Below the pieces are notes generated by a model. It ran no database searches, was not told where the DNA came from, and saw only the letters and a program-made list of their open reading frames with translations. DNA of 64,000 bases, taken from assembly GCF_001941945.1 (NCBI RefSeq), contig NZ_CP015583.1, positions 1,878,501-1,942,500 on the forward strand, in the 5' to 3' direction. This stretch comes from Roseomonas gilardii. Lineage in GTDB: Bacteria > Pseudomonadota > Alphaproteobacteria > Acetobacterales > Acetobacteraceae. The position numbers and the translations under genes are program-made. How positions within the stretch are numbered: the stretch's first letter is position 1; each line of letters begins with the position of its first letter. Below are positions 28,206 through 47,034 of this stretch, in pieces.

Positions 28206-28215
28206 CGGCCTTTCC

Positions 28216-29307: not shown

Positions 29308-29417
29308 GCCGGCGGCTTAGCCCCGCTGTGTCTCCGGCGGAAGTGCGCTCTGCGTCCGGCAGGGCCGCGATGCCCCCGGGACCGCCGACACAGGCTTCGG
29401 TGCGGCAGCGGATCGAG

Positions 29418-29457
29418 CCGTCATGCGCCCTTCATGGAACTGTCATTTATCTGTAGC
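29418..29457 (+). promoter_or_regulatory. Pho-box array upstream of ugpB
   Basis: Four 7-bp elements occur in exact 11-bp steps: CCGTCAT, CCTTCAT, CTGTCAT and CTGTAGC, at 29418, 29429, 29440 and 29451, each separated by four bases. This is the PhoB binding pattern (CTGTCAT repeats with 4-bp spacers). It ends 58 bp before the ugpB ATG, where it could activate transcription under phosphate limitation. Confidence 0.7.
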
Positions 29458-29515
29458 ATGCCCGCAACAAGCACCGGCGAAAGACCGGCCGCTCACACAA
29501 AGGGAGAACGTGATC

Positions 29516-30886
29516 ATGCGGCGTCGTTCCGTTGCCGCCGGCGCCTTGGCGCTGGCTTCCGCTCCGCTGGCCTTGGGCCTGCTCGGCCGTCCCGCCCTGG
29601 CACAGGGCACCGGCAACCGCACCGAACTCCAGTTCTGGCACGGGCTGACCCAGCCGCTGGGCGGGATGCTGGAGCAGATCGCCGCCGACTTCTCCGAGTC
29701 GCAGGACAAGTTCCGGATCAATGCCAGCTTCCGGGGCAGCTATCCGGACACCATGGTGGCGGCCATCGCCGCCTTCCGCGCCGGCACCGCGCCGCATATC
29801 GTGCAGATGTTCGAGGTCGGCACCGGCACGATGATCAATGCCGGCCGCGCGATCGTGCCGCTGCACGAGCTCGCCTCGCAGACCAAGGTCGATCTCGGGA
29901 CCGCGGACTACCTCGCCGCCATCAAGGGCTATTACAGCCTGCCGGACGGGCGGCTGATGTCCCTGCCCTTCAACAGTTCGACCTCGATCGTCTTCTACAA
30001 CAAGGACGCCTTCCGCAAGGCGGGGCTGGACCCGTCGAAGTTCCCGGCAACATGGCCGGAGGTCGCCGAGGCGATGCGCAAGCTGAAGGCGGCGGGCTTC
30101 TCCTCGCCCATGACCACCTCCTGGCCCACCTGGCTGAACATCGAGCAGGTGAGCGCCATCCACAACATCCCGCTGGCCACCAGGGCGAACGGCTTCGAGG
30201 GACTGGATGCCGAGCTTCGCATCCACAACCCGCTGCTGGTGAAGCACCTGGGCAACCTCGTGGAGTGGCAGAAGGAAGGCCTCTACCGCTACGGCGGCCG
30301 TGACTCGGCGGCGGATGCGCTCTTCCCGTCGGGCGAGTGTCCGATCGTCATGGCCTCCTCCGGCCTGCGGGCCCGCACCGTGAAGGAAGCGAAGTTCGAA
30401 TGGGGCGCGGCGATGCTGCCCTACTACCCCGAAGTGAAGGGCGCGCCGATCAACAGCATCATCGGCGGCGCCAGCCTCTGGGTGATGCAGGGCGGACCCC
30501 GGGCGCAGCGCTCGGCGGCGGAGCTCCAGGGCATCGCCGAGTTCTTCCGCTATCTTGGCCGGCAGGACATCGCCGCGAAGTGGCACCAGGATACGGGCTA
30601 CCTCCCCGTCTCCATGGGCGCCTACAAGGCGACGAAGGAATCCGGATTCTACGAGAAGAACCCCGGCGCCGACGTGCCGGTGGAGCAGCTCCTGCGCGGC
30701 GGCGGCAACACCACGGAGAACAGCCGCGGCATCCGCCTCGGCGGCTTCCCGGAGATCCGCAACATCATCCAGGAGGAGATGGAGCGGGCGCTGCAGGGCA
30801 ACCAGAGCGCCGACCAGGCCCTGGCCAATGCGCAGACGCGTGGCAACCAGGTCCTTCGCAACTTCGAGCGCACCAACAAAGGCTGA
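29516..30886 (+). CDS. ugpB: sn-glycerol-3-phosphate ABC transporter, substrate-binding protein
   Basis: Periplasmic binding protein for glycerol-3-phosphate and related glycerophosphodiesters. The ATG at 29516 is chosen over a GTG at 29510 because AGGGAG at 29501-29506 has proper spacing; this gives 456 residues. A signal peptide beginning MRRRSVAAG is cleaved near ALAQG. The mature part is a family 1 solute-binding fold (TELQFWHGL, LPFNSSTSIVFYNKDAFRKA). It heads the ugpB-A-E-C operon behind the Pho-box array. Confidence 0.93.
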   Translation: MRRRSVAAGALALASAPLALGLLGRPALAQGTGNRTELQFWHGLTQPLGGMLEQIAADFSESQDKFRINASFRGSYPDTMVAAIAAFRAGTAPHIVQMFEVGTGTMINAGRAIVPLHELASQTKVDLGTADYLAAIKGYYSLPDGRLMSLPFNSSTSIVFYNKDAFRKAGLDPSKFPATWPEVAEAMRKLKAAGFSSPMTTSWPTWLNIEQVSAIHNIPLATRANGFEGLDAELRIHNPLLVKHLGNLVEWQKEGLYRYGGRDSAADALFPSGECPIVMASSGLRARTVKEAKFEWGAAMLPYYPEVKGAPINSIIGGASLWVMQGGPRAQRSAAELQGIAEFFRYLGRQDIAAKWHQDTGYLPVSMGAYKATKESGFYEKNPGADVPVEQLLRGGGNTTENSRGIRLGGFPEIRNIIQEEMERALQGNQSADQALANAQTRGNQVLRNFERTNKG

Positions 30887-30889
30887 CCG

Positions 30890-31771
30890 ATGAGCGAGAA
30901 GGTCGCCTTTCGCGGCACGGCGCTGCCGCTGCTGCTGCTTCTGCCACAGCTCGCGATCACGGCGATCTTCTTCTACTGGCCCGCGCTCCAGGCGGTGATC
31001 CAGTCCACGCTGCGGGAGGACGCCTTCGGCCTCTCCAGCGAATTCGTCGGGCTGGAGAATTTCCGCGACGTCCTGTCCGACCCGAACTGGCTCCACGCCG
31101 CCTGGAACACGGCGATCTTCTCCTCCTCGGTGGCCATCCTGGCCCTTTCGGTGGCGCTGTTCCTCGCGGTGCAGGCGGACAAGAAGCTCCGCGCCGCCAG
31201 CATCTACCGCACCCTGCTGATCTGGCCCTATGCCGTGGCCCCGGCCGTGGCGGCGGTGCTCTGGCTCTTCCTGTTCCACCCGCAGATCGGGCTGATCGGC
31301 CGCGCGCTCAACAATGCCGGCCTCGCCTGGGACTACCGGCTCAACGGCACCCAGGCGATGGTGCTGGTGGTGATCGCCTCGGCCTGGAAGCAGGTCGCCT
31401 ACAACTTCATCTTCTTCCTGGCCGGGCTGCAATCCATCCCGCAGAGCGTGCTGGAGGCGGCCGCCATCGACGGCGCCCGTCCGGTGCGGCGCTTCTGGAC
31501 AGTGGTCTTCCCCCTGCTCTCCCCCACCATCTTCTTCCTGGTGGTGGTGAACCTCACCTATGCCTTCTTCGAGACCTTCGGCGTCATCCATGCGCTGACC
31601 CAGGGCGGCCCCGCCCGGGCGACGGAGACGCTGATCTACAAGGCCTGGATGGACGGCGTGCAGAACCTGAACCTCGGCACCTCCTCGGCCCAGAGCGTGA
31701 TCCTGATGGTGATGGTGGTGGGGCTGACCGCCTTCCAGTTCCGCTTCATCGACCGCAAGGTGCATTACTGA
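30890..31771 (+). CDS. ugpA: sn-glycerol-3-phosphate ABC transporter permease UgpA
   Basis: Inner-membrane permease of 293 residues with six predicted transmembrane segments. The EAA loop, which contacts the ATPase, is visible as [20 protein letters not shown]. It begins three bases after the ugpB stop and overlaps the ugpE start by one base (TGATG), so the operon is translationally linked. It works as a heterodimer with UgpE. Confidence 0.93.
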
Positions 31772-32640
31772 TGGCCGATGCCGCCACCGCGACACGCCAC
31801 CGGCAGGCGCGTTCGAAGCTGCTGGCCCATGCGCTGCTGATCCTGGGCGTCCTCATCTTCGCCTTTCCGATCTGGATCGCGCTGATGGGCTCCACCCACG
31901 ATGCTTCCACCCTGGGGCGCGGCGAGGTGCCGCTGCTGCCGGGGCCGGACGCGGTCGAGAACTACGTCACCGCCTGGACGCAGGGCGGCGGCCGCATGCG
32001 CACCACGCCCGCCTGGGTGATGCTATGGAACAGCGCGCTGATGGCGCTGATCATCGCGGTCGGCAAGATCACGATCTCCATGCTCAGCGCCTTCGCCGTG
32101 GTGTTCTTCCGCTTCCCCTTCCGGATGACCTGCTTCTGGCTGATCTTCATCACGCTGATGCTCCCGGTCGAGGTGCGGCTGATCCCGACCTTCCAGGTCA
32201 TGGTGGACCTGCGCCTGACCGACACGATGACCGGGCTCACCCTGCCGCTGATCGCCTCCGCCACGGCGACGCTGCTGTTCCGCCAGTTCTTCCTGACCAT
32301 TCCGGACGAGCTGGCCGAGGCGGCGCGGCTCGACGGCGCCGGGCCGCTGCGCTTCCTGCGCGACGTGGTGCTGCCGCTCTCGCGCAACTCGATCGCGGCG
32401 CTCTTCGTGATCCTCTTCATCTATGGCTGGAACCAGTATCTCTGGCCGCTGCTGATCGTGACCGACCGGTCGCTGGAGACCATCGTGGTCGGCCTTTCCA
32501 AGACCATCGGCAACGGCGATTCCCAGAACGAGTGGAACACCATCATGGCCATGGCGGTGCTGGCGCTGCTGCCCCCCGTCGCGGTGGTGGTGGCGATGCA
32601 GCGCTGGTTCGTGCGCGGCCTGACCGAGACGGAGAAGTAA
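31771..32640 (+). CDS. ugpE: sn-glycerol-3-phosphate ABC transporter permease UgpE
   Basis: Second permease subunit, 289 residues with about six membrane segments. The EAA loop reads [20 protein letters not shown], and [13 protein letters not shown] is typical of UgpE. The ATG overlaps the ugpA stop. A Gly/Arg-rich insert (TQGGGRMRT) lies in the first periplasmic loop. The gene ends six bases before ugpC. Confidence 0.93.
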
Positions 32641-32645
32641 GCCCT

Positions 32646-33716
32646 TTGGCGACCCTGAAGCTGGACGAGGTCCGCAAGTCCTTCGGCAAGACGCAAGTGC
32701 TGCACGGCATCGAGCTCGATGTCGCGGATGGCGAGATGGTGGTGCTGGTCGGCGCCTCGGGCTGCGGCAAATCCACGCTGCTGCGGATCACCGCGGGGCT
32801 GGAGACGCCGACATCCGGCAAGGTGCTGATCGCCGGGCGCGACGTGACACCGCTGGAGCCGGCCGATCGCGACATTGCCATGGTGTTCCAGAACTACGCG
32901 CTCTACCCGCATATGACGGTGGCGCAGAACATGGCCTATGGGCTGAAGATCCGCCGCCTGCCGCGCCCGGAGATCGACCGGCGGGTGCGCGAGGCCGCCG
33001 AGATCCTGGGCCTGGGCGCTCTGCTGGACCGGCGCCCGCGCCAGCTTTCCGGCGGCCAGCGCCAGCGCGTCGCCATGGGCCGCGCCATCGTGCGGGAGCC
33101 GGCGCTGTTCCTGTTCGACGAGCCGCTCTCCAACCTCGACGCCAAGCTGCGCGTGCAGATGCGGGCCGAGATCAGGCGGTTGCAGCGGCGCCTGGGCGTG
33201 ACCTCGATCTTCGTGACTCACGACCAGGTGGAGGCCATGACCCTGGGCGACCGGCTGGTGGTGATGCACCAGGGCCGCGCGGCGCAGGTCGCCTCCCCCA
33301 TGGAAGTCTGGGCGAAGCCGGCCGACACCTATGTCGCGAGCTTCATCGGCAGCCCCTCGATGAACTTCCTTCCGGCCACGCTGCTGGAAGGCGGTGTTGG
33401 CGCGAAACTGGCTTCGGGGCAGGAGATCCGTTTCGCGGACGGGCCACGCCCCGGTGCGGCGGGAATGCCCCTGACGCTGGGGCTGCGGCCCGAGCATGTG
33501 CTGGTCGGAGAGGCGCCGGATGCCCTGCCCCTCACCGTCGATCTCGTGGAACCGCTGGGCTCCGAGACGGTGGTGCATGGCAGGCTGCCGGATGGCGTGC
33601 CGCTCACCGTCCGAGTGAACGGTCCCTTCGCGGGAAGCAGCCTGACGGCGCTCCTCGACCCAAGGGAGCTACATGTCTTCGATGGCGGGACCGGGCAGCG
33701 GCTGGAGGCCGCCTGA
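32646..33716 (+). CDS. ugpC: sn-glycerol-3-phosphate ABC transporter ATP-binding protein UgpC
   Basis: ATPase of the importer. A TTG start at 32646, five bases after ugpE, gives 356 residues beginning [14 protein letters not shown]. Walker A is GASGCGKST, the signature is LSGGQRQR, Walker B is [12 protein letters not shown], and the H-loop is FVTHDQ. A C-terminal TOBE regulatory domain ([10 protein letters not shown]) follows. No ugpQ phosphodiesterase gene is present downstream; 28 bp after the stop the integrated element begins. Confidence 0.93.
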
Positions 33717-33744
33717 AGGCAGGGCCAGGCCGGGAAAAATTGGA

Positions 33745-33787
33745 GTGCGCCCGCTGGGGCTCGAACCCAGGACCCCAAGATTAAAAG
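33745..33787. repeat. attL: displaced 3' half of tRNA-Lys
   Basis: A 43-bp exact copy of the tRNA-Lys segment from the anticodon loop to position 73 plus one base. The 5' half of a tRNA is missing, so this is not a functional gene. It marks the left junction, adjacent to ugpC. Unlike the right copy, it is not followed by an encoded CCA. Confidence 0.93.
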
Positions 33788-33916
33788 ACACCGAAGCGGG
33801 CTTTTCGCTAGACCCCGCAGACCCCCGCTAAGATACACTAAGTCTCTGAATTAGTCCGTATATCTGATCTTTCGGCCTCCGCAGCGGTCCGCTTGCATTC
33901 GCTACATTCCGCGCTA

Positions 33917-33938
33917 AATGTCCGGGCAGTGTCCGGGC
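33917..33938 (+). repeat. left arm-type site, tandem TGTCCGGGCAG
   Basis: Two direct copies of TGTCCGGGCAG, overlapping the first possible ATG of the integrase frame. The same 22 bp occur at 42246-42267 near the right end in the same orientation. Position and pairing suggest integrase arm-binding sites. Confidence 0.6.
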
Positions 33939-33956
33939 AGATGGGGTTTGCTGGCG

Positions 33957-35318
33957 ATGCGGAAGCTCTCGGAAGGGCCGGTGAAGATCACCAAGGCGAC
34001 GGTCTCGGCGGCGTGGAAGCGGCGCGAGCCAGGGGTGCGGCTGACGATCCGGGATGAGGCATGCCGGGGGCTGGCCCTGGTGGTGAACCCGAACGGTATG
34101 GCCTGGATGTTCGGCTACCGCCCGCGCGGCATGGACCCGCTGACGGGCAAGCGCCCGGCCATGCGGGAAATCAGCCTCGGCACCCCCGAGGGCCTGTCAC
34201 CGGAAGACGCCAGGACCGCCGCCGGGCGGCACAAGAGCGGGGTGAAGTCGGGAGAGGACCCGGCAGCCCAGCGCCGGGCCGCCAGGGACAAGGCTGCCAG
34301 GGAGCGGGCGACCACGATTGAACGCCTGATGGATGCCTACGCGGCCACGCTGCCGAAGCGGGGCAAGATGCGCGGCAGTGGAACCCTCTCCCCGGCCGTG
34401 GCGAAGGCGGAGGAACAGCAAGTCCGCGCCGCCGTTGCAACCATGAAGGCCGAGCGGATGCCGGTGGCCGAACTCGGCGCCAGCGAAATCCGGCTTCTCC
34501 TGGGCGCGGAGGCCAAGCGCCCGGCAACCGCCCGCCACCGTTTCGGCGCCCTCTCCCGCTTTCTCGATTGGTGCCAGGAAGAAGGGCATATCGCGCTCAA
34601 TCCGTGTCTCGCGATTGCCAAGAACCGGAAGCCACGCCCGCTGAGAGCCAGGACGCATCATCTGGCGCCGAAGCAGTTGGCGCAGCTATGGCGCGCGGCG
34701 CAGGACGCCTGCGACAATCCGGGAGCGGAGGCCGAGCTTCGCCTTGAGCCGGTCCAACGCGACCTGATCCGCCTCATGATCGCTGTCCCGTGCCGTCGCG
34801 GCGAGGCGGCTTACCTCGAATGGTCGCATATCAACCTGAAAGACGGGCTTTGGACCATGCCCGGTCGCCTGACGAAGAACGGCGACCCGCATTGCGTTCC
34901 GCTGCCAGCGCTGGCGCTCGACATGCTGACCGAGCGGCATGCGGCAGCCGGGGAGCCAAGTGACGGGCTGGTGTTCCCTAGCCCGAAGTCCGGCAAGCCG
35001 ATTGCGACATGGAGCGACATGAAGAAGGCCATGGATGCCGCGTCGGGCCTCACGGGCTGGCGCTGGCATGACTTTCGACGCTCATTCGTGACAGCGCTGG
35101 CGGAGAACGGCGTTGCCGAAGCAGTCGCGGATGCCCTGTTGAACCACCGTCAGAGCGCGACGCGCGGTGGCGTGCTTGGCGTCTATCAGCAAGCGCGGCG
35201 GATGCCGGAACGGATCGTGGCCATGCGTCGGTGGAGCGAAATTCTAAGCGCGAGCATCAACGGCGACGATGCGAAGCCAGGCAAGGTTGTGGGCATGGAT
35301 AGGAGGGCTGTGGCGTGA
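33957..35318 (+). CDS. int: tyrosine recombinase (integrase)
   Basis: Catalyses integration and excision at tRNA-Lys. The ATG at 33957 is preferred over one at 33918 because the latter lies within the repeated arm motif; this gives 453 residues. A DUF4102-like N-terminal part (DEACRGLALVVNPNG) is followed by a SAM-like core-binding domain. The catalytic set is complete: R280 in CRRGEAAYLEW, K307, H371 and R374 in HDFRR, His in NHRQ, and nucleophile Y410 in GVYQQAR. Its stop overlaps the next gene (GTGA). Confidence 0.93.
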   Translation: MRKLSEGPVKITKATVSAAWKRREPGVRLTIRDEACRGLALVVNPNGMAWMFGYRPRGMDPLTGKRPAMREISLGTPEGLSPEDARTAAGRHKSGVKSGEDPAAQRRAARDKAARERATTIERLMDAYAATLPKRGKMRGSGTLSPAVAKAEEQQVRAAVATMKAERMPVAELGASEIRLLLGAEAKRPATARHRFGALSRFLDWCQEEGHIALNPCLAIAKNRKPRPLRARTHHLAPKQLAQLWRAAQDACDNPGAEAELRLEPVQRDLIRLMIAVPCRRGEAAYLEWSHINLKDGLWTMPGRLTKNGDPHCVPLPALALDMLTERHAAAGEPSDGLVFPSPKSGKPIATWSDMKKAMDAASGLTGWRWHDFRRSFVTALAENGVAEAVADALLNHRQSATRGGVLGVYQQARRMPERIVAMRRWSEILSASINGDDAKPGKVVGMDRRAVA

Positions 35319-35980
35319 GCGCCGGGAGCGACGGGAGCGGCGACAGCGGGGGGAGTATCTTCCTCCCTGACGGGATTGATCCCGAGGCACTTGCTGACAC
35401 CGTACGAGAGCACGCGGAGGCGCGCGCTCGCGCCCAACATGCTGCCGTCCTCCTGGGCGCAGCCGATGAAATGCGGCGCAAGCTTGAGATGGTCGCGGGC
35501 GCGACTGAGGGAGGGCTGTTGGCGATCAACGCACTTAGCGCGGCCAGGGACATGGCCAGGGCTGCGCTGCTTGCGGCGGGGTGTGATCTGGCGCGCGCGG
35601 AGGAATTGATGGCGCCGATTGAACGTATTGTCTGGAACATGTGGGACGCGCAGGCGCGGGGGGCGGGGGAGACTGGACGCCCCCCTTTGTCATGGGCCGT
35701 GGCCACAAGGCGGGCTGCGCTCGCCGCTGCCATGGAATTGCTCGTGCAAAACAGCAGGCCGGAAGATGACGCCGCCAAGCAGGTTGCCGAATGGGCGGAT
35801 GGCGATGCGGTGTTTGATGGCAGGGGAAGGGACAAGGCGGCCGCGCTCGTGGACCGGTGGCGCAGGGACGCGAGGGGAGAGGGCAAGAATTCGCACGCAC
35901 GGCTTAGCGAACCGTTCTGGAAGTTTGTGGCGTTCGGCAAGAAGCACGGCGCCGAATTTATAGTCAGGCACTACCTCTAA
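35315..35980 (+). CDS. hypothetical protein of the integrated element
   Basis: A 221-residue protein from a GTG start overlapping the integrase stop, so probably co-translated. It is almost wholly alpha-helical, rich in Ala, Glu and Arg, with long helices around residues 25-110. The N-terminus is Gly/Ser-rich and the C-terminus basic and aromatic (FWKFVAFGKKHGAEF). No domain or signal peptide is recognised. A structural or regulatory role in the element is possible but unsupported. Confidence 0.7.
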   Translation: MSAGSDGSGDSGGSIFLPDGIDPEALADTVREHAEARARAQHAAVLLGAADEMRRKLEMVAGATEGGLLAINALSAARDMARAALLAAGCDLARAEELMAPIERIVWNMWDAQARGAGETGRPPLSWAVATRRAALAAAMELLVQNSRPEDDAAKQVAEWADGDAVFDGRGRDKAAALVDRWRRDARGEGKNSHARLSEPFWKFVAFGKKHGAEFIVRHYL

Positions 35981-35997
35981 CCACTCCTTGGGGAAAA

Positions 35998-36024
35998 GTC
36001 GGAATACCCTCGATATTTTCCGAC
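35998..36024. promoter_or_regulatory. inverted repeat GTCGGAA...TTCCGAC
   Basis: GTCGGAA at 35998-36004 faces TTCCGAC at 36018-36024, with AT-rich sequence between. It lies 59 bp before the 36083 gene and uses the same core motif as the box cluster at 40605-40821. It may be an operator for an element-encoded DNA-binding protein. Confidence 0.5.
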
Positions 36025-36082
36025 CAACAACCTCGCCAATCTCTAGCCCAGCGGGGCACAGCGCCCCTAAGCGGAGGCAGAG

Positions 36083-36352
36083 ATGGGAGCATATCCCAAG
36101 GCGTTTGAACCGGACCTTTCCACCCTTCCGGCGGTGGTGGACCGCAGGGGCGGCGCGGATATCGTCACCCGGTATTTCTTCCCGGTATCGCCCCGGACGT
36201 TGGAGCGCTGGCCGCTCGCCGGGCGTCGGGTGAATGGAAAGCTGGTCTTCGCGACGGCTGACCTGATCGCGCATGCACGCGCCGTTCTGGCCGCCGCGCC
36301 AGCCATCCGAGGCGGGCATTCACACGCCAACCAGAGCCAGCAAGCCGCCTAA
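36083..36352 (+). CDS. small helix-turn-helix DNA-binding protein
   Basis: An 89-residue protein preceded by a good GGAGG-like ribosome site. The segment IVTRYFFPVSPRTLERWPL followed by GRRVNGKLVFATADLIAHA has the helix-turn-helix plus wing layout of AlpA/excisionase-like proteins. In the element it could act as excisionase or transcription regulator. It follows the GTCGGAA inverted repeat, which may be its own target. The call rests on pattern rather than on strong conserved residues. Confidence 0.6.
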   Translation: MGAYPKAFEPDLSTLPAVVDRRGGADIVTRYFFPVSPRTLERWPLAGRRVNGKLVFATADLIAHARAVLAAAPAIRGGHSHANQSQQAA

Positions 36353-36357
36353 AGAGA

Positions 36358-36388
36358 AACGGCCACGCTCTGGCAAAGCGCGGCCGTT
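36358..36388. terminator. hairpin after the 36083 gene
   Basis: Arms AACGGCC-A-CGCT and AGCG-C-GGCCGTT pair around a short loop five bases after the stop codon. There is no T-tract, so termination is possible but unproven. Part of it (GGCCGTTCCGGA) recurs 51 bp downstream. Confidence 0.45.
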
Positions 36389-36486
36389 CCGGATCGGTGT
36401 TCGATAGGTATTCTCTGGCTCGAAAGAGATAGGGCCGTTCCGGACGGAGTGCAATGCTCAGGCGTGGCGCAAGAGGGAGCGCCAGC

Positions 36487-36714
36487 ATGTCTTATGGCAA
36501 GGGCCATAACAGGCCACCAAAGCAGCCGCAGATGAAGCCGCCGATTGTGGCGTGCAATCTCTACCCCAAGAGGCGTGAACGCGACGGCGCGGGGTACCTC
36601 GCCGGGCGGCTAGGCGGCATGCGCGTGATGATCATGCCCAAGCTCGACGGCGACGAAGGCGAGCATTCGCATGTGTTGATGTTGGCGGAAATCGCGGAAC
36701 GCGGCGATGGATGA
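36487..36714 (+). CDS. small hypothetical protein of the element
   Basis: A 75-residue protein starting MSYGKGHNRPPKQP with GAGGGAG upstream as a ribosome site. The rest (VACNLYPKRRERDGAGYLAGR, MRVMIMPKLDGD) suggests a compact beta-rich domain. It overlaps the primase gene by eight bases, pointing to co-translation with the replication module. No family is recognised. A longer start at 36454 lacks a ribosome site. Confidence 0.6.
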   Translation: MSYGKGHNRPPKQPQMKPPIVACNLYPKRRERDGAGYLAGRLGGMRVMIMPKLDGDEGEHSHVLMLAEIAERGDG

Positions 36715-37699
36715 GGCCGCAGACAATCCGCTTGGGCTGACCGTCATCACCACACGCGGCCCGCGCCTCGCGAAAACCTATGATGCCGCAACCGGCGAAT
36801 GGACGGCCTATGACAAGGCCCGCACGGTTAACCTGCGCGAAGTTGTCATGGATGGGCTGCCCAAGTTAGCCGCCCTGCTGCAACGACTGAGCGGGCAGCC
36901 ACGCCGGGCGATTGTCCGGGGCGCGATTGCCGATCCTGCCCGCGTGGAAGGCGTGCGGCGCCTGCTGCACCCCGACACACGAACAGGCGAGGCGGCAACC
37001 CTGCGCGACGCTTGCCGGGCATGGGTGGCGCTGGACCTAGACGGGCTGCCAGCGCCCGCCGGTCTGGACCCAAGCGACCTTGAAGCCTGCGGGGTGGCTG
37101 CCAGGGCCGCCCTGCCACGGGCCTTTCACGGGGCCGCTTGCGTGGTCAACGCCACCGCAGGGCATGGCGTGAAGCCAGGGCTCAGGCTGCGCCTGTGGTT
37201 CCTGCTGGACCGCCCCCTGACCGGCGCGGAGGCCAAGCGCTGGCTGGCGGGGCGAGGCGGGCTCGACGTGTCCACCCTGAACCCGGCCCAGGTGATCTAC
37301 ACAGCCGCCCCCGTCTTCCAGGGCATGCGCGACCCCCTGCCCTGCCGCGTGGCGCTCTTGGGCGGGCACGAGAGGGTCCAGCCCCCGCCGCCGGAAGCTC
37401 TTCTGGCGCCGAGGCCCCGTCCCGAGCCGAGACTGCTCCCCAAGGGACGTGTAGGGGATGCCCTGGCCGAGATGCAGCGGCGCGAGGCGGCCCGGCGGAT
37501 CATCACGGCCCCCGAAGGCCGTCGGCACGCTGCGGCGGTGGGCGCTGCCGCCGGGCTGGCGGGGCTCGTGAGGCACGGGCGGCTCACGGAAGCCGAGGCC
37601 ACACGGGACATTGAAGAGGCCCTGAGCCGCGCCACGGGGCGCCAGGGTGAGGGCGCGCGGATCATGTCCTGGGCGCTGCGCAGCGGAGCGGGGGCATGA
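36707..37699 (+). CDS. archaeo-eukaryotic-type primase (probable)
   Basis: A 330-residue protein, probably the primase or primase-polymerase of the element. The acidic DxD pair is D110 and D112 in WVALDLDG. A conserved stretch GHGVKPGLRLRLWFLLDRP at 152-170 supplies the His and the third acidic residue of the AEP fold. The C-terminal 90 residues are helical and may be an accessory DNA-binding part. It lies in a replication module with the DUF927 protein. Processivity and polymerase activity cannot be judged. Confidence 0.72.
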   Translation: MDEAADNPLGLTVITTRGPRLAKTYDAATGEWTAYDKARTVNLREVVMDGLPKLAALLQRLSGQPRRAIVRGAIADPARVEGVRRLLHPDTRTGEAATLRDACRAWVALDLDGLPAPAGLDPSDLEACGVAARAALPRAFHGAACVVNATAGHGVKPGLRLRLWFLLDRPLTGAEAKRWLAGRGGLDVSTLNPAQVIYTAAPVFQGMRDPLPCRVALLGGHERVQPPPPEALLAPRPRPEPRLLPKGRVGDALAEMQRREAARRIITAPEGRRHAAAVGAAAGLAGLVRHGRLTEAEATRDIEEALSRATGRQGEGARIMSWALRSGAGA

Positions 37700-37965
37700 T
37701 CTGCTGCGAAAGCCCCGCCTATCTGCGGCAAATCGGGGTATCCCGGACCATATACCGGAATGGCCGCCGCCGGGCCATCCCACGGGCGTTCGCCAGTCCT
37801 GCCGCATGGACAATCCCGCCGCCGGGGACAACGGGCGCTCGCGTGTTCCCGAGCCGCATCGGGGAAAAGGGGCCGCCGACCTTACCGGGCGCCGCCGCAC
37901 CCTGCCGCATGGGTGGCTGTTGCCGCGCTGGCTCAACGCGCGCTCCCCACAAACGCGAGTTTTTC

Positions 37966-38205
37966 ATGATGGAACTCACTGACACCCCCCTTGTGCCCAT
38001 GCTGCTGCGCGAGGCGCAGGTGGCCGAATTGCTCGGCCTTTCGAGGGATGGACTGCGCCGCCTACGAATTCGCGGCAGCGGGCCGCCGTATATCCGGCTC
38101 GGCGACCTGAAAGTGGCTTATCGCCGCGAAGATATAGAGGCTTGGCTCAATAGCCGGACCTTTCGCGACTACGCCAGCGAACTTGCCGAAAGCGCGGAGT
38201 CATAA
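37966..38205 (+). CDS. helix-turn-helix (excisionase/MerR-like) protein
   Basis: A 79-residue protein. LLREAQVAELLGLSRDGLRR is a classic helix-turn-helix, and GSGPPYIRLGDLKVAYRRED is the wing seen in excisionase (AlpA/Xis-like) proteins. The ATG pair at 37966/37969 gives the normal family length. A 266-bp region separates it from the primase; an in-frame extension back to 37696 is low-complexity and rejected. It probably regulates the element or assists excision. Confidence 0.85.
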   Translation: MMELTDTPLVPMLLREAQVAELLGLSRDGLRRLRIRGSGPPYIRLGDLKVAYRREDIEAWLNSRTFRDYASELAESAES

Positions 38206-38210
38206 GGGCC

Positions 38211-40214
38211 ATGGATAGGTTTGACTCTGGCATGAACGCCCCCCGCGACGATGACGAATTCAGCGGCGAGGGGAGCAGGGAGCTCAAGGCGACGCGCGAG
38301 GATATCGTGGCTGCGGCTGGCGAAATCGCCAAAATGCCCATGCACGAGCGCGATAGCGACATCCGCGAAATGGCGGGAAGAATCGGCGTCCCCCAGAAGG
38401 CTATCCGCGAGGAAGTTGAGCGCATCGTTAAAGGAAATACTCAGCGGAGGCGAAAGGAAGTCCACGACAAACAGAAGGACAACCTCGTTAAGTTTCCGCT
38501 CGGCTATGAGATGCGGGATGATGGGCTGTACGAGATTTCAGACAGCGAAGGCTCCGATATCAAGCTTTGCGGGCCGTTCAAAGTCCGTGGAAGTGCGCGG
38601 GATGGTGATGGCGGGGGCTGGTCAACTCTAATCGAATTCATCGACCCGGACGAAAAGGAAAAATCCTTCCTTGTGACGCCTGAGCTAACTTTGAGCGGTT
38701 CAGGGAAGCTTGAGCCGCGCTTGGCGGCCGAAGGACTAGAACTCGCTGGGCAATGGACGCACGCCAAGTTGAGGGATGTACTGTCGCGGGTTGAGTGTGA
38801 AGCCCGGTTACGCTTGGTCCCTGGCCCCGGCTGGCACGGCAATGCCTTCATGATGCCGGGCGGCACCACAGTCGGTGGCGGCGACGAGAAACTGTACCTT
38901 GATCAGCGCCTCAGAAGCGCAGACGGCTTTACCGCGTCCGGATCACTGGAAGACTGGAAGAACGGCGTTGCCAAACTGATACCGGGGAATTCGCTCGGCA
39001 TATTCTTCATGTCGGCCGCGTTCGCTGGACCGCTGCTTCGCCCTTTAGAAATGCACGGCGGCGGATTCCACATCTATGGGCAGTCTCAATCAGGCAAGAC
39101 AACGGCTCTACAGCTAGCAGCGAGCGTGTGGGGGAAGCCTGAGAACGGGCTTGGGCTGCATTCGTGGAACGCAACGCAGAATGGGCTTGAGCATCGGTTC
39201 CAAACGGCTAATGACACGCTGCTCTGTCTTGACGAATTGCAGGAGACGGGGCGCACCAATATCGCTGACGCCGTGTACATGGCCGCAAACGGCAGTGGGA
39301 AAGGACGGCTCAATAGCGACGCCAGCGCAAGGGAGACACGTAAATGGCGTGCGCTATTCCTGTCCACCGGGGAGATGAGCCTTGAAGACAAAGCGCGCGC
39401 GCAAGGCGGTGGAGGGCTTCATGCCGGTGCGGATACACGCTGTCCATCAATTCCAATTCCGGATGGGGGTTGCTTCCAGGGGGTCGGAGCCGACGAGGCT
39501 CGAAGCACCCTGGCTGGGGTGGTGAGTTGCTCCAACGCAAACCACGGCGTCGCTGGGTTGGCGTGGATCAAATATCTAGCTGAAAACGTCGAGAACCCTG
39601 ACTTCATTGAAGGGCTGCGCAGGGGAGTTTCCCGAATTCGCGGTGAACTTGCTCCTAAAGGCGCTGACAATCAGGTTGTGACTGTAGCCGAGCGTTTTGC
39701 CATTGTTGCCGTGGCTGGTGAAGAAGCGATCAAGGCAGAGATACTTCCGTGGCCGCCGGGGACCGCCGAGGCTGCGGTGATGGCTGCATTCGGCTGCTGG
39801 CTTGCTGATCGTGGCGGGGCTGGCAGCAAGGAAGAGTTGCAACACGCTGATTACGTCAAAGGGGAATTGCTGCGCCTGCACTGCTTGGGGTTCCGTGAAA
39901 TCACCAGCGACGGAACGCCGGGGGGCGAGAGGATAGGTGAAATGTTTGGTTTCAGGCGGGTGGTGGACGGGATGACCGAATACCTAGTTGCCGCTGCGCG
40001 GTGGCCGGTTTTCTGCGGTGGGGTCAATGGATCGCCAATGGCCGTTGCAAAATCTTGCCTCAAAGCCGGTATTCTTATGAAGGGCGACGGGAAGAACCTT
40101 ACCAAAAAGCATCGCGTCGCTGGGTTTGGCAATGCCCGATACCACACCATCCGCCTCGGAAACCACATCGAGCCGGACGAGCAATTCGAACCCAGCGAAA
40201 CCATTACGCCTTGA
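38211..40214 (+). CDS. DUF927 domain-containing ATPase/helicase
   Basis: A 667-residue protein of the DUF927 family, thought to be a replicative helicase of mobile elements. The N-terminal 110 residues are charged and helical. The DUF927 core follows, with Walker A GQSQSGKT near residue 290 and Walker B LLCLDELQE near 340. Motifs WNATQNGLE and FLSTGEMSLEDK match the family. Third-position GC is lower than in the chromosome. With the primase upstream and the box cluster downstream it forms a likely self-replication module. Confidence 0.88.
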   Translation: MDRFDSGMNAPRDDDEFSGEGSRELKATREDIVAAAGEIAKMPMHERDSDIREMAGRIGVPQKAIREEVERIVKGNTQRRRKEVHDKQKDNLVKFPLGYEMRDDGLYEISDSEGSDIKLCGPFKVRGSARDGDGGGWSTLIEFIDPDEKEKSFLVTPELTLSGSGKLEPRLAAEGLELAGQWTHAKLRDVLSRVECEARLRLVPGPGWHGNAFMMPGGTTVGGGDEKLYLDQRLRSADGFTASGSLEDWKNGVAKLIPGNSLGIFFMSAAFAGPLLRPLEMHGGGFHIYGQSQSGKTTALQLAASVWGKPENGLGLHSWNATQNGLEHRFQTANDTLLCLDELQETGRTNIADAVYMAANGSGKGRLNSDASARETRKWRALFLSTGEMSLEDKARAQGGGGLHAGADTRCPSIPIPDGGCFQGVGADEARSTLAGVVSCSNANHGVAGLAWIKYLAENVENPDFIEGLRRGVSRIRGELAPKGADNQVVTVAERFAIVAVAGEEAIKAEILPWPPGTAEAAVMAAFGCWLADRGGAGSKEELQHADYVKGELLRLHCLGFREITSDGTPGGERIGEMFGFRRVVDGMTEYLVAAARWPVFCGGVNGSPMAVAKSCLKAGILMKGDGKNLTKKHRVAGFGNARYHTIRLGNHIEPDEQFEPSETITP

Positions 40215-40504
40215 ACCCGGCTGAAATCACGGCCTGGGCGGAGAGGACTTCAATCACCCTCTCCATTCAAGTCAAAGCTGTTGTGGTCAAGCCCGCGAAT
40301 GGTCCAATTCCATGCGGGGCAGCCAACGACACCACCGATCACGACGAAGCCGAGGCCAGGGCGATGGCGGAACACTACGCCGCCCCGCCTGAAAGCGCGT
40401 GGGACAATACCCCCACTCCGGAGGAACATCGGCGGCGAATCGAGGCGCTTCTGCGCTCGGCTGGCGGGGCTTGGGAGCCGCCGGAAGGATACCAGCGAGC
40501 TTGA
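40211..40504 (+). CDS. small hypothetical protein
   Basis: A 97-residue frame from a TTG that overlaps the DUF927 stop (TTGA). It is acidic and has no recognised domain; the end (EEHRRRIEALLRSAGGAWEPP) looks like a helix plus tail. The overlap suggests translational coupling, but the start codon is weak and the protein is not supported by family evidence. It is the last gene before the box cluster. Confidence 0.5.
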   Translation: MNPAEITAWAERTSITLSIQVKAVVVKPANGPIPCGAANDTTDHDEAEARAMAEHYAAPPESAWDNTPTPEEHRRRIEALLRSAGGAWEPPEGYQRA

Positions 40505-40604
40505 CCCGACTTCGCGGTCGGAACCCCCGCAGCCGCCCGCCTAGTCACGCCCGATCACGCTGGCCCACGCAAGAGGGGTCTTTGTAAGATATTGACTTTG
40601 CTTT

Positions 40605-40821
40605 GTTCCGACGTTCCGACCATTTTCGTGCGAAGGACACCTATATTCTAAATACACACACGGATCGGGCGCGACGACAGTGTGTGTGGCGCTATATATA
40701 TCTCTCTATCTCTTAAAAGGTCGGAACAGTCGGAACACTCTCAAAAAACAATGTAAGTCCTAGGGTTTTTGCGTTCCGACTTGCTAAAAAGGTAAGTCGG
40801 ATTAAGTCGGAACGTCGGAAC
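40605..40821. other. GTCGGAAC box cluster, candidate replication origin
   Basis: Within 217 bp of a 495-bp gene-free stretch (40505-40999) there are seven exact copies of GTCGGAAC on either strand and one near copy. Inverse copies are at 40605, 40613 and 40773; forward copies at 40720, 40729, 40806 and 40814; the near copy is at 40796. The first pair and the 40720/40729 pair face each other across an AT-rich tract (TATATATAT, TCTCTCTATC). An 8-bp inverted repeat ACACACAC/GTGTGTGT lies at 40654-40661 and 40680-40687. Iterons of an origin are the best reading, with operator sites as alternative. The rest of the stretch shows nothing else. Confidence 0.6.
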
Positions 40822-40999
40822 ACAGCGCACTTGCCGCTCCGCCCCGCTAGGACGCTTGCCAGGGCCTTTCCTCCCGTCCGGGCATATTCTCCCCCCGGAC
40901 GCCTCCGGAGGCCGCTTCTGGCCCATCCTGGCGCCTCGGGAAAAGCCGCGCATATAAACAGGGCTGACCATGCACCCCGCTCTATAAACGGACGCGAAA

Positions 41000-41476
41000 A
41001 TGATGATCGAGAATGACTCTCAGAACGCCGCTGAGAATTCAGCCCCGCCGAAGCAAAACCCCCCGCACATGTTCCAGCCCGGCCAAAGCGGCAATCCGGG
41101 CGGTAAGCCGAAGGGCGCCGACAGGATCGCGCGCCGTGCAATCAATAAAATCCTGCAAGAAGGATCAGTTGATGTGGCCAAGCGGGTTGTTGCCGCCGCT
41201 CAGTCCGGCGATATGCGCGCCGCTGAAATCGTGATGAAGCGCATCATGCCTGAACGGAGGGGCGCTGTTGTGGAATTCGAGATGCCGAAGCTCGAAACCG
41301 TTGACGATGCGGTTGAGGCGATGGCGCGGATTTCGGCGGGGGTCACGAACGGAGAGCTTACCACTGCCGAGGCGGCCGATTTGGCGGGGGTCGTTGAGAC
41401 GTGGCGGAAGACGCTTGAGACGGCTGATATCGCAAGGCGGCTCGAAGCCCTGGAAGCGTCCCGAACGGTGAATTGA
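41000..41476 (+). CDS. DUF5681 domain-containing protein
   Basis: A 158-residue protein whose FQPGQSGNPGGKPKGA motif at residues 26-41 defines DUF5681. A basic helical part (RIARRAINKILQEG) suggests nucleic-acid binding; the rest is acidic and helical. DUF5681 genes are often found beside phage terminase genes, so a packaging-related role is conceivable, but no terminase large subunit is present here. The ATG pair at 41000/41003 follows the box cluster by about 180 bp. Confidence 0.85.
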   Translation: MMIENDSQNAAENSAPPKQNPPHMFQPGQSGNPGGKPKGADRIARRAINKILQEGSVDVAKRVVAAAQSGDMRAAEIVMKRIMPERRGAVVEFEMPKLETVDDAVEAMARISAGVTNGELTTAEAADLAGVVETWRKTLETADIARRLEALEASRTVN

Positions 41477-41558
41477 GGCAGCGGCAGGCCTCTTATAAAG
41501 GCTTAGCTGCAATTAGCATTTGCATTACCGCCGGGTGTCAAGATCACTTAGGTCAGCC

Positions 41559-42056
41559 CTAGAAGGGTGTCCAGTTGGGGTTAAGACACATATCTGAATT
41601 CTGCTTTAGCCCCTTATAGCGTTGATCATCCAGCTTTTGCTTCATGCAGGTCAAATCATCCTCGCATGGCGCAGTCAGTTGAGAAAATAGTTTTTTCAGC
41701 AACGCTGCATCGGATTGTCCTGCACGAACTGCTGGAAGTGCTTGATTGGCAAAACCAGGAACGGAGGACTGACGCGTCATAAGGTAGCGCTGTAATCTCT
41801 GACGCGATGCGGACCATCCCTCATATAGCTGTCTTTGTCCGTCATTTATGGCTTTGCACCATTCGGGGGCATCATCTGAGCAATCAAATAGCTTCGTCGG
41901 TGTATCATTTAGCACTGCAATAGCGAAGCCCGCGCAGTAGGAGGCTCGCAAATCTGTATCGCTAAGCTGGGATTGTGCATGGCTTGATAAAGTACACAAC
42001 AGGAGCGCCACGCTTACAGCGACAGCCTTCCACATGAATGATGCTCTCTCGGCCAT
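41559..42056 (-). CDS. exported cysteine-containing hypothetical protein
   Basis: A 165-residue protein from the ATG at 42056; a start at 42035 would also keep the signal peptide. A hydrophobic export signal (KAVAVSVALLLCTLSSHAQS) precedes a mature part with several cysteines spaced like disulphides (SYCAG, FDCSDDAPEWCK, APCEDDLTC, DMCLN). No family is recognised. It runs opposite to the other element genes and is clearly AT-richer, so it is likely cargo of separate origin, perhaps expressed from its own promoter. Confidence 0.7.
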   Translation of the reverse strand: MAERASFMWKAVAVSVALLLCTLSSHAQSQLSDTDLRASYCAGFAIAVLNDTPTKLFDCSDDAPEWCKAINDGQRQLYEGWSASRQRLQRYLMTRQSSVPGFANQALPAVRAGQSDAALLKKLFSQLTAPCEDDLTCMKQKLDDQRYKGLKQNSDMCLNPNWTPF

Positions 42057-42245
42057 ATGGCTGCCGGACCATAAGTACTGATCTTCGCTGCTGATAGCCT
42101 CAACATACGTGGCCAGCATGAAACCAAAGGAGAGGTACCACGCGTCGGCGGGCCGCGAAGCCTATGCGGAGGGGCTACCCTGCCGGAAAGGACACGGGCG
42201 CGACGGGAGGATGCAAGACAGGCAGTGCACCGCCCTGGGGGCCGG

Positions 42246-42267
42246 AATGTCCGGGCAGTGTCCGGGC
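42246..42267 (+). repeat. right arm-type site, tandem TGTCCGGGCAG
   Basis: The same 22 bp found at 33917-33938, again as two direct TGTCCGGGC(AG) units. It lies 71 bp inside the right junction. A pair of identical sites near both ends of the element supports integrase arm binding. Confidence 0.6.
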
Positions 42268-42336
42268 GTTTCTCAGAAAACGGAAGGTTCGGTCCCCGCT
42301 ATCTCATCATAAATATTTGATTTTGATGAGTATTTT

Positions 42337-42412
42337 TGGTGCGCCCGCTGGGGCTCGAACCCAGGACCCCAAGATTAAAAGTCTCGTGCTCTACCGACTG
42401 AGCTACAGGCGC
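42337..42412 (-). tRNA. tRNA-Lys (anticodon UUU), integration target
   Basis: A 76-nt gene with acceptor arms GCGCCTG and CGGGCGC (one G-U pair), the D-arm sequence GCTCAG, anticodon loop CTTTTAA and T-loop TTCGAGC. CCA is encoded. The 5' half lies outside the element; the 3' half from the anticodon loop onward belongs to the right attachment repeat, so the mature 3' end, including CCA, is supplied by the element. Confidence 0.95.
42339..42381. repeat. attR: tRNA-Lys copy at the right junction
   Basis: The 43-bp direct repeat identical to 33745-33787. It covers the anticodon loop through the discriminator base of tRNA-Lys plus the first C of CCA. Tyrosine integrases commonly use the anticodon loop as the strand-exchange region, which fits this repeat. 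Confidence 0.93.
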
Positions 42413-42438
42413 CCAAGAAGGGTCGGCCGGACGGATAG

Positions 42439-42476
42439 CACAGGCTCCGCGTCTCGCGAAGAGCGCGGAGCCTGTG
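42439..42476. terminator. strong hairpin after the ppi gene
   Basis: Thirteen perfectly paired bases (CACAGGCTCCGCG / CGCGGAGCCTGTG) around a 12-base loop, between the peptidyl-prolyl isomerase stop and the tRNA-Lys 5' end. There is no T-run, but position and strength fit termination of the minus-strand ssb-gyrA-coaD-ppi run. Confidence 0.6.
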
Positions 42477-42531
42477 TCCGGCGCGGAAAGAAGGGCGAGG
42501 CCGTGGTGGCCCCGCCCGTCAGCAGGCCGGC

Positions 42532-43110
<579 letters not shown>

Positions 43111-43116
43111 CTGGAA

Positions 43117-43636
<520 letters not shown>

Positions 43637-43644
<8 letters not shown>

Positions 43645-46411
43645 CCTCCCCCTCCCCGTCATCCACCACGGGGAAGCAGGATGTCACGCGTTCGTTATCG
43701 TCCAGGCGCAACATGGTGACGCCCATGGATGTCCTCCCTGTGACACGCACCTGATCCACCGGCAGGCGGATCAGCCGGCCATTGTCGGTGACGAGCATGA
43801 CATCATCGCCCGGCTTGGCGGGGAAGGTCGCCACGACCTCGCGCCCCGTGCGCTTGCTCAGGCTGATATTGGCGATCCCCTGCCCGGCCCGGCCGGAGAC
43901 GCGGTACTCATAGGCGGAGGAACGCTTGCCGAAGCCCTGGTCGGTCACGACCAGCAGCAGCTCCTCGGCCGCCTCCAGCTCGGCGAAGCGCTCGGCGGAG
44001 AGCGCGACCTCCTCGCCATCCTCCATCGGCTCATCTGCCTCCACGGGCGCCTCCAGGGAGGCGGCCTCCTCGGCCCCCTCCTCCGTCTCGGCACCGTTGC
44101 GGCGCCGGGCAGCGGCGGCCTTCAGATAGGCGGCGCGCTCGGCACTGTCCGCCTCGACATGGCGCAGCACGGAGAGCGCGATCACCCCGTCGCCATCCGC
44201 CAGCCTGATGCCACGCACGCCGGTGCTGTCGCGCCCGGCGAAGACGCGCAGCGTGTCCGTCTCGGCCACGAAGCGGATGCAGCGGCCGTTGCGGGTCGCC
44301 AGCATCACGTCGTCGCCCTCGCGGCAGGTCTGCACGCCGATCAGGCTGTCACCTTCGTCCAGCTTCATGGCGATCAGGCCGGAGGAGCGGACATTGCGGA
44401 AATCCGACAGCCGGTTGCGGCGGACATTCCCGCTGGCCGTGGCGAAGACGAGGTGCAGGTTCTCCCACAGCCCCTCATCCTGCGGCAGCGGCAGCACCGC
44501 CGTCACCTGCTCGTCCTGCTGCAACTGCAGGAGCTGGCGCAGCGAGCGGCCGCGCGCCGTCGGGCTGGCGAGCGGCAGCTTCCAGACCTTCTCGCGGAAG
44601 GCCATGCCCCGGCTGGTGAAGAACAGCACCCACTGGTGCGTGTGCGCGTTGAAGGAACGCACCACCACGTCGTCCTCGCGCGTCCCGGCGGCGGAACGCC
44701 CGCGCCCGCCGCGGTTCTGCGCGCGGAAGCTCTCCAGCGTGGTGCGCTTGACATAGCCGTCGCGGGTCATGGTCACGACCATGAGACCCGGCTCGATCAG
44801 GCTCTCGTCGTCCTGGTCCAGCACGCCATCGACGATCTCGGTGACGCGCGGCGTGGCGATCTGGGCGCGGACCTCGGCGAGTTCCTGCGACATCAGCTCC
44901 AGCCGGCGCACATGGCTGGCCAGGATGTCCAGCAGCTCTCGGATCCGGCCGCCGACCTCGTCCAGCTCGGCGATGATCTTCTCGCGCTCCAGGCCGGTCA
45001 GGCGCTGGAGGCGCAGCTCCAGGATGCCCCGTGCCTGCGTTTCCGTCAGGTGGACCGTGTCGTCGATCACGACATTGCCGCTGTCATCCACCAGCGCCAG
45101 CAGCGCGCCGACATCGCCCGCCGGCCAGGCGCGCGCCATCAGCGCCTCGCGCGCCGTGTTGGCGTCGGGGCTCTGGCGGATCAGGCGGATCACTTCGTCG
45201 ATATTGGCGACGGCGATCGCCAGGCCGATCAGCAGGTGGCCGCGCTCGCGCGCCTTGTTCAGGCGGTGGCGCGAGCGGCGGAGGATCACCTCCTCGCGGA
45301 AGTCGATGAAGGCCCGCAGCGCGTCCTTCAGCCCCATCTGCCGCGGTCGGCCCTTGTCCAGCGCCAGGATGTTCGCAGCGAAGGAGATCTGCAGCTGCGT
45401 GAAGCGGTAGAGCTGGTTCAGCACCACCTCCGGCGTCGCCTCGCGCCGCAGCTCGATCACGATGCGCATGCCAGAGCGGTCGCTCTCGTCGCGCAGGTCG
45501 GAAATGCCTTCCACCTGCTTGGAGCGGACCAGCTCCGCGATGCGCTCCAACAGCGTGGTCTTGTTGACCTGGTAGGGGATCTCCGTGACCACGATGGCAT
45601 TGCGGTTGCCGCGCAGTTCCTCGATCGCGGTGCGGGCGCGCAGCGGGATGCCGCCCTTGCCGGTCTCATAGGCGGAGCGGATGCCGGCGCGGCCCAGGAT
45701 CAGCCCGCCGGTCGGGAAGTCCGGCCCGGGGACGATCCGGATCAGCTCCTCCAGCGAGATATCCGGCTCGCGGATCATCGCCAGCGTGGCGTCGATGATC
45801 TCGCCCGCATTGTGCGTCGGGATGTTCGTCGCCATGCCGACGGCGATGCCGTTGGCGCCGTTGACCAGCAGGTTCGGGAAGGCCGCCGGGAGCACACGCG
45901 GCTCCTGGGCACTCTCGTCGTAGTTCGGCTGGAAATCGACCGTGTCCTCGTCGATCCCGGCCAGCAGCGCGGCGGCGGACTTCGCCAGCCGCGCTTCGGT
46001 GTAACGCATCGCCGCCGGCGGATCGCCGTCGATGGAGCCGAAATTGCCCTGGCCGTCGATCAGCGGCAGCCGCATCGAGAAGGGCTGCGCCATGCGGACC
46101 ATGGCGTCATAGATCGCCGCGTCGCCATGCGGGTGATAGACACCCATCACGTCACCGACCACGCGGGCCGACTTACGGTGCGGCTTGTCGGGCGTGTAGC
46201 CCGCCTCGTGCATGGCGAAGAGGATGCGCCGGTGCACGGGCTTCAGCCCGTCCCGCGCATCCGGCAGGGCGCGCGAGACGATCACGCTCATCGCATAGTC
46301 GAGGTAGGAGCGGCGCATCTCCTCCTCGAGCGCGACGGGCGTCCCGCTCAGCGGAATGCCCGCGCCATTCTCATCCCCGCCGTTGCCGGCGCCGTCCTCG
46401 GTCTCGCTCAC
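43637..46411 (-). CDS. gyrA: DNA gyrase subunit A
   Basis: Introduces negative supercoils with GyrB. The 924-residue protein has its catalytic tyrosine in MRYTEARL and a GyrA-box QNRGGRG beginning the C-terminal beta-pinwheel. The quinolone-determining region reads [17 protein letters not shown], with alanine where E. coli has Ser83 and Asp retained at 87. An acidic, low-complexity insertion of about 60 residues (rich in Glu/Ala, including [11 protein letters not shown]) interrupts the C-terminal domain. It follows ssb by 44 bp. Confidence 0.97.
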
Positions 46412-46455: not shown

Positions 46456-47034
46456 TCAGAACGGGATATCGTCGTCCAGGTCGCCCTTGGGCGCATCCCA
46501 GCCGCCACCACCGCCGCCGCCGCGCGACGGTGAGCGGCTGCCGGAACCGCCGCCCGGGGAACTGCCCCCCTGGGAGCCACTGCCGAAGCCGCCACGGTCG
46601 CCGCCGCCGGAGCGGCCACCACCCCCGAAGCCACCGCCACCGCCACCGGAATAGCCGCCGCCCTCACCACCCTCGCCGCCGCCGGCGCGGCCGCCGATCA
46701 TGGTCAGCTCGCCGCCGAAGTTCCGCAGCACGATCTCGGTGGTGTAACGGTCCTGGCCGTCCTTGTCCTGCCACTTCCGGGTCTCGAGCTTGCCCTCGAT
46801 ATAGACCGTGGAGCCCTTGCGCAGGTACTTCTCGGCCACCTCGCCCAGGCGCTCGTTGAAGATCGCCACGGAGTGCCACTCGGTCCGCTCCTGGCGGTTC
46901 CCCTCGCGGTCCTTGAAGGTCTCGCTGGTGGCGATGCGCAGGTTCACCACCTTGCCACCGTTCTGGAAGTTGCGGACCTCGGGGTCGCGCCCCAGATTGC
47001 CCACCAGGATCACCTTGTTGACGCTGCCGGCCAT
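46456..47034 (-). CDS. ssb: single-stranded DNA-binding protein
   Basis: Coats single-stranded DNA in replication and repair. The 192-residue protein has an OB fold ([27 protein letters not shown]) over the first 110 residues. A long Gly/Ser/Arg-rich linker of about 70 residues follows, then the acidic C-terminal tip DDDIPF that recruits partner proteins. It diverges from uvrA over a 411-bp gap containing a LexA box, the same gene pair and logic as in E. coli, and leads into gyrA. Confidence 0.97.

Follow-up and report, generated by a model that had tools for sequence, protein, structure and literature searches.

Most of the phage satellites that have been studied by experiment were found in staphylococci, enterics, Pasteurellaceae and vibrios. 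The plan published for phage-inducible chromosomal islands (PICIs) comprises an integrase with a specific attachment (att) site, an AlpA-type regulator, a primase, the replication protein Rep, an iteron origin 3′ of rep and, sometimes, a small terminase subunit (TerS), the origin consisting of two iteron sets that flank an AT-rich region immediately 3′ of rep (PMC6092414). For SaPIbov1 the outline given is of a DUF927 helicase, a primase of the archaeo-eukaryotic (AEP) type and iterons downstream of rep (PMC7581432). An element with a corresponding layout occupies positions 33745–42381 of a 64,000-nt stretch of the Roseomonas gilardii genome (contig NZ_CP015583.1, positions 1,878,501 to 1,942,500; hereafter ‘the window’). 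We put the probability that it is a PICI-like phage satellite at roughly 0.75. Its anatomy supports membership of the PICIs and, because it has its own integrase, replication genes, origin and a probable packaging gene together with no recognised shell genes, it would most likely spread by hijacking the particles of another virus. An initial annotation had proposed a satellite here, a reading now supported by conservation of the gene set, by empty sites in related genomes, by a replicon like that of the published PICI plan, and by the position of DUF5681 genes before the large terminase subunit gene (TerL) in phages.

The element is a clean, precise insertion into the 3′ end of a tRNA-Lys gene. 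It is bracketed by the 43-bp direct repeats originally reported, which are perfect and lie 8,594 bp apart, start to start; the left copy stands on the integrase side (33745–33787) and the right copy (42339–42381) lies inside the target gene, which is an intact minus-strand tRNA-Lys(TTT) (42337–42412, by ARAGORN and Rfam). GC content is 62.6% inside the element against approximately 70% in the flanks, the surrounding genome comprising 5.41 Mb in five contigs. Two genomes of the same genus (G003 and G011) match both flanks, lack the element and retain one repeat copy: at one empty site (L251) window positions 28000–33787 (94%) join 42339–44066 (96%), the two matches sharing precisely the 43 bp of the core, and at the other (L252) the flanks, matching at 93% and 94%, likewise share one single core. 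Since a single repeat copy stands at the unoccupied site of these relatives, the insertion was precise, and the surviving empty sites exclude a fixed host region and make a decayed remnant unlikely. A prophage that has lost its structural genes by deletion is the least probable origin, at the margin of credibility: it would explain why integrase, primase and the DUF5681 gene have phage homologues, but the main frames are open, the att repeats perfect and the empty sites present, short elements flanked by direct repeats of their own are also present at other tRNA-Lys, tRNA-Arg and tRNA-Thr genes, and, in a search of 25 genomes limited to phrog_2 and phrog_9 (by which other TerL families would be missed), TerL was found inside these elements only in L041, from genome G029.

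Just inside each att repeat stands a pair of 9-bp boxes, TGTCCGGGC, spaced by 11 bp (plus strand, at 33919 and 33930 on the left and at 42248 and 42259 on the right), each pair lying within a 22-bp repeat (33917–33938 and 42246–42267). These four copies are the only ones in the 64-kb window. Both ends of the related element L050 carry these boxes too, both ends of L043 and L082 carry box pairs with other sequences, and the terminal pairs are probable arm sites of the integrase.

Ten open frames of the window were scanned against Pfam and PHROGs. Eight of the nine genes of the element lie on the plus strand and the single minus-strand gene is at the right end, which fits the one-direction plan of Gram-negative PICIs. 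The complete tyrosine integrase that had been proposed is borne out: the 453-aa product (33957–35318, frame open from 33918) matches PF00589 (4e-15), PF13356 (Arm-DNA-bind_3, 1.9e-10) and phrog_1 (1.7e-45), and the motif words R, K, HxxR, H and Y all occur in it. Its nearest matches seen were in L050 (63% identity) and L205 (54%), both elements with other replication genes. The replication block has the order pri–alpA–rep, a detail beyond the initial annotation. The primase-like protein (330 aa, 36707–37699), without a Pfam match, resembles phrog_16950 ‘DNA primase’ over residues 12–218 (3.6e-17), as the first description implied; it is probably of the AEP type and had zero matches in the phage collection searched. 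Next comes a 79-aa AlpA/HTH_17 regulator or excisionase (37966–38205), a predicted activator (HTH_17 6.6e-10; phrog_66 4.4e-10; Phage_AlpA 7e-05, scoring 23.1 bits against a cut-off of 21), and then the 667-aa DUF927 replication helicase, or Rep (38211–40214), an assignment that stands at PF06048 1.3e-58; its profile finds PDB entries 8tch (4.8e-22) and 5dgk (1.4e-20), a solved ‘pathogenicity island protein’ being among the matches. The DUF5681 gene, also correctly called (158 aa, 41000–41476; PF18932 5e-12), encodes the proposed satellite TerS. No structural, lysis or transfer family was detected in these scans, in agreement with the initial annotation, nor was there any of the capsid, portal, protease or terminase genes that make up the set of capsid-forming PICIs (cf-PICIs); searches with phrog_2 and phrog_9 found no TerL close to the element in its own genome.

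Among the smaller genes, one of 221 aa (35315–35980) overlaps int by 4 nt and has no Pfam or PHROG match; in L040 a 214-aa gene sits in the same overlap. It is followed by two small conserved genes without Pfam matches, at 36083–36352 (homologues in L037, L046, L050 and L205) and at 36487–36714 (orf4, 75 aa; homologues in L036, L046, L201 and L202). The first of these had been called as one of two helix-turn-helix genes; that call is confirmed only for the AlpA-like gene, this one having homologues in relatives but no Pfam match. At the right end, a 186-aa open frame on the minus strand (41559–42119), without a match in Pfam, PHROGs or PADLOC, may be accessory cargo.

A putative origin at 40605–40821 consists of seven iterons, GTCGGAAC, at 40605, 40613 and 40773 on the minus strand and 40720, 40729, 40806 and 40814 on the plus strand. 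GTCGGAA occurs seven times in 241 bp, whereas 2,000 dinucleotide shuffles averaged 0.058 copies and never gave more than 1, which upholds the origin-like cluster first noticed. They stand 391–607 nt past the rep stop in more than two groups, with intervening stretches of 57% and 68% AT. The element thereby shows a PICI trait, a pri–rep replicon whose iterons frame AT-rich DNA 3′ of rep. Away from the origin, at window 35998–36025, the gap that separates the 221-aa gene from the one after it holds another two GTCGGAA boxes, which face opposite ways.

Comparable arrays are found 3′ of rep in most DUF927 relatives, usually no more than about 110 bp from the rep stop, a shorter distance than in the window element. 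Their layout is a group of boxes spaced at approximately 9 bp, mostly an inverted box, a spacer, and a second group; the words differ among relatives (for example GTTCCGAC, GTCCCGAC, GTCCGAC and GGTTCCTA). Such arrays could be seen by eye in L041, L037, L039, L036, L034, L071, L059, L073 and L048. By exact word counts, the array exceeded all 20 block shuffles in 8/12 DUF927 loci (the window, L036, L037, L039, L041, L059, L073 and L048), the degenerate-looking arrays of L034 and L071 did not exceed them, and in L038 and L077 no array was visible and the shuffles were not exceeded. Only 2/13 loci with other helicases exceeded the shuffles, each by a margin of one box (L045 and L079). In L038, a gene for a Mu-gpP-like baseplate hub (12458–13702 of the oriented locus) follows rep at the place where relatives have their iteron origin, and no iterons were seen there.

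Set against described satellites, the element most resembles the PICIs (SaPIbov1 and Gram-negative examples such as EcCICFT073): a site-specific integrase, an AlpA-type regulator, a primase, Rep and iterons, with the main genes in one direction and no structural genes. The Rep family named for SaPIbov1 is DUF927, as here (PMC7581432). It differs from them in its Acetobacteraceae hosts, in a primase unmatched in the phage collection, in the position of alpA between pri and rep, in the DUF5681 protein as proposed TerS and in the grouping of its boxes. The relatives L041 and L059 have the portal, protease, major head protein and both terminase subunits of the module described for cf-PICIs (PMC10690885), whereas the window element has none of that module. 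Phage-inducible chromosomal minimalist islands (PICMIs) of Vibrionaceae, as presented in their description, share with it the integrase, a gene overlapping int by 4 nt, AlpA, a primase and the absence of a recognised capsid remodelling gene, but they lie beside fis and have DUF3987/DUF5906 primases, in contrast to a tRNA-Lys site, a DUF927 protein and no DUF3987/DUF5906 match (PMC10803314). The Pseudomonas ‘phage’ vB_Pae_U10 (PP003922, 10.2 kb) likewise has an integrase, two excisionase/regulator genes, a primase and then a DUF927-like protein, which shows 30% identity to that of the window over 66% of the latter; unlike the element, it carries an exonuclease and a gene annotated as encoding the major capsid protein GpN, and the window primase found no counterpart in the phage collection. 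Gene names associated with capsid size in P4 and with its helper P2 did not turn up in the Pfam and PHROG scans of the window, which were not aimed at them.

A packaging role for the DUF5681 protein gains support from its position in phages. The family was found at 41 IMG/VR loci, of which 32 were tried, 15 had a called gene over the match and nine had their neighbours tested by PHROGs. The next large gene was TerL, directly downstream, in 8/9 of these contigs, the other (L121) having a methyltransferase; in L112, L122 and L124 the next genes were 82–95% identical to the TerL of L110. The 47,483-bp map of Salmonella phage STGO-35-1, for which headful packaging was inferred, is set to start at TerL, and its DUF5681 gene, at 46,936–47,355, is entered in the virion proteome table (PMC8954984); on a circular map that gene would fall just before TerL. 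A Roseomonas mucosa plasmid encodes a homologue of the window protein (54% over about half of the query) that is annotated as a terminase small subunit, with no TerL among the 32 features listed in a gene table that is incomplete.

DUF5681 genes also recur in small tRNA-bounded elements. Matches were present in 21/195 related genomes, the own genome included; 15 stretches were taken and 12 of these searched for repeats, and four had tRNA repeats at both ends: L205 (tRNA-Thr, 7.3 kb, repeat 91% over 47 bp), L206 (tRNA-Arg, 9.5 kb), L208 (tRNA-Lys, 7.0 kb) and L214 (tRNA-Lys, 8.3 kb, from another bacterial family). No repeat pair was found in the other eight. In all four the gene lies between large replication-type genes and the tRNA-side repeat, and no TerL of phrog_2 or phrog_9 was found. 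Their replication genes differ from those of the window where recognised (Toprim/DUF7146 and AAA_25 in L205), the 807-aa gene of L206 having no Pfam match. In PHROGs the protein matches only families of unknown function. Several observations weigh against a TerS: the structure model is too weak for a fold call, one fecal contig has a DUF5681 gene beside apparent tail genes, and plasmids bearing ParA carry DUF5681 genes. By its gene neighbourhood, a satellite TerS is nonetheless probable.

Two side observations concern the same gene family. Four plasmids of 13–35 kb (L257, L258, L259 and L260) carry a DUF5681 gene or a ‘terminase small subunit’ relative together with an integrase, several also having ParA and a primase/helicase; no TerL is annotated in the stretches examined, and they may be plasmid forms of satellites. 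In L052 (G010:C166), the gene after a 1,218-aa primase–helicase fusion belongs to the DUF5681 family and has 45% identity to that of the window.

If the element is a satellite with its own TerS, replication of a helper would lead AlpA, another small regulator or both, perhaps with the 221-aa gene overlapping int, to switch on excision, after which primase and Rep would amplify the element from the iterons. The DUF5681 protein would then recognise element DNA and recruit the large terminase and portal of the helper, bringing satellite DNA into helper capsids. Since no capsid-remodelling gene was recognised, the element may fill normal heads as concatemers or may use smaller ones. Two prophages of the same genome could be helpers. 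One (G000:C2, about 1–37000; L057 and L058) is siphovirus-like, with head genes, TerL and a presumed tape-measure gene of 1,410 aa without a PHROG match; its TerS has no similarity to the DUF5681 protein. The other (G000:C1, about 2715000–2742000; L246 and L247), which we take to be P22-like, has a portal (phrog_156), a major head protein, a TerS (phrog_1482), TerL and an integrase.

It is also conceivable, though unlikely, that the element is a phage satellite on which the terminase of the helper acts at a helper-like cos or pac site, the DUF5681 protein being a DNA-binding regulator or maintenance factor. PICIs packaged by cos without a TerS are on record (PMC6092414), the model gives no clear TerS fold, DUF5681 genes are present on ParA-bearing plasmids as well, and no TerS was recognised in L040, L043, L050 or L082, which are likewise minimal and have an att repeat at each end. 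Against this, the element and the prophages of its genome share no stretch longer than 18 nt, at the level of host controls (16–19 nt), and no helper-like site was found; the placement of DUF5681 genes directly before TerL in all but one of the phage contigs tested also speaks for packaging.

The element has relatives in other genomes. Full-length primase matches above 160 bits occurred at 19 places in 17/195 related genomes, the window included (8/15 genomes in the genus), with 40–54% identity apart from the window itself; at an E value of 0.001, 24/195 genomes had a match. A scan of genome contigs gave 24 primase loci out of 73 candidate stretches; 17 of the 24 loci are named as Acetobacteraceae or as genera placed in that family, and the other seven are not. 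Within a comparison set of 34 loci, window included, seven were flanked on each side by tRNA-derived direct repeats 42 bp or longer: the window (tRNA-Lys, 8.6 kb), L036 (tRNA-Lys, 14.7 kb), L040 (tRNA-Arg, 7.6 kb), L041 (tRNA-Arg, 17.4 kb), L043 (tRNA-Thr, 10.1 kb), L050 (tRNA-Lys, 7.7 kb) and L082 (tRNA-Thr, 7.6 kb). L046 is an eighth case, its left copy lying just beyond the stretch first taken; the remaining loci, some of which run off their contigs, had no such pair within the stretch examined. The gene set of integrase, small regulators, primase and helicase is conserved in related genomes at several tRNA genes (Lys, Arg and Thr), the comparison that the initial annotation had called for. 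Because the helicase family after the primase varies (DUF927, DUF3987, as in L050, or DUF3631, where recognised), replication modules have been swapped.

Packaging genes vary as well. L041, bounded by perfect 48-bp repeats, has a portal (2.1e-103), head protease (3.7e-47), major head protein (1.7e-74), TerS (1.6e-24) and TerL (7.6e-134), with no tail family in the ten scanned of its twenty called genes. The IMG/VR contig L059, scanned in part, has the same head–terminase module at 76–89% identity, and in both loci the module adjoins the same primase and DUF927 types as in the window element. A TerS was found in L037 (1e-29), with homologues in L044 and, weakly, L075; L038 carries the baseplate hub gene mentioned above, and a head protease of the S49 type is encoded in L033. 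It had been considered that homologues might always carry capsid and tail genes, which they do not; among the 34 loci the capsid–terminase module was found in L041 and L059, with a major capsid homologue (35%) in L072. The element is best explained as a PICI-like satellite from a modular family, other members of which form capsids.

These relatives bear too on whether the element might be an integrative mobilizable element, excising and replicating by itself and moved by a conjugative element that uses an oriT not recognised here, or taken up by transformation, in either case independently of a helper phage. Its integrase, replication genes and origin are complete, no helper link is established for it, and DUF927 helicases are reported on staphylococcal cassette chromosome elements, which are not phage satellites (PMC7581432). 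Such a history is nevertheless quite improbable: the Pfam scan of the ten frames gave no relaxase or transfer family, head, portal and terminase genes are present in relatives that share its primase family, and the window holds a gene of the family that precedes TerL in phages.

Searches for satellites or PICIs of Acetobacteraceae, Roseomonas or the alphaproteobacteria found no publication on this lineage in the literature covered, which did not take in the main satellite survey or the cf-PICI paper; a single paper there names DUF5681. We give about even odds that the satellite family is an unreported one of Acetobacteraceae and neighbouring alphaproteobacteria, built on one integrase/primase chassis with exchanged helicases and several routes to packaging (a new family of satellite TerS, namely DUF5681; a different TerS family; or a complete head–terminase module of its own). 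If so, a single lineage would include both PICI-like and cf-PICI-like forms as variants, and elements differing mainly in the packaging module would offer a natural experiment in stealing capsids versus making them. Were such a lineage common among environmental and skin-associated alphaproteobacteria, the host range of satellite biology would widen, and DUF5681, a domain of unknown function, would gain a testable role as a satellite TerS.

Two minor observations were made among the relatives. L050, L040 and L082 have near-equal repeat-to-repeat lengths (7,656, 7,642 and 7,627 bp) despite different integrases and tRNA targets, which may be chance. The satellite-like element L036, in genome G013, carries a 988-aa type IIG restriction-modification protein as defence cargo (2995–5961 of the oriented locus; PADLOC 2.2e-285), and homologues of this protein, at 60–65% identity, are present in L039 and L071.

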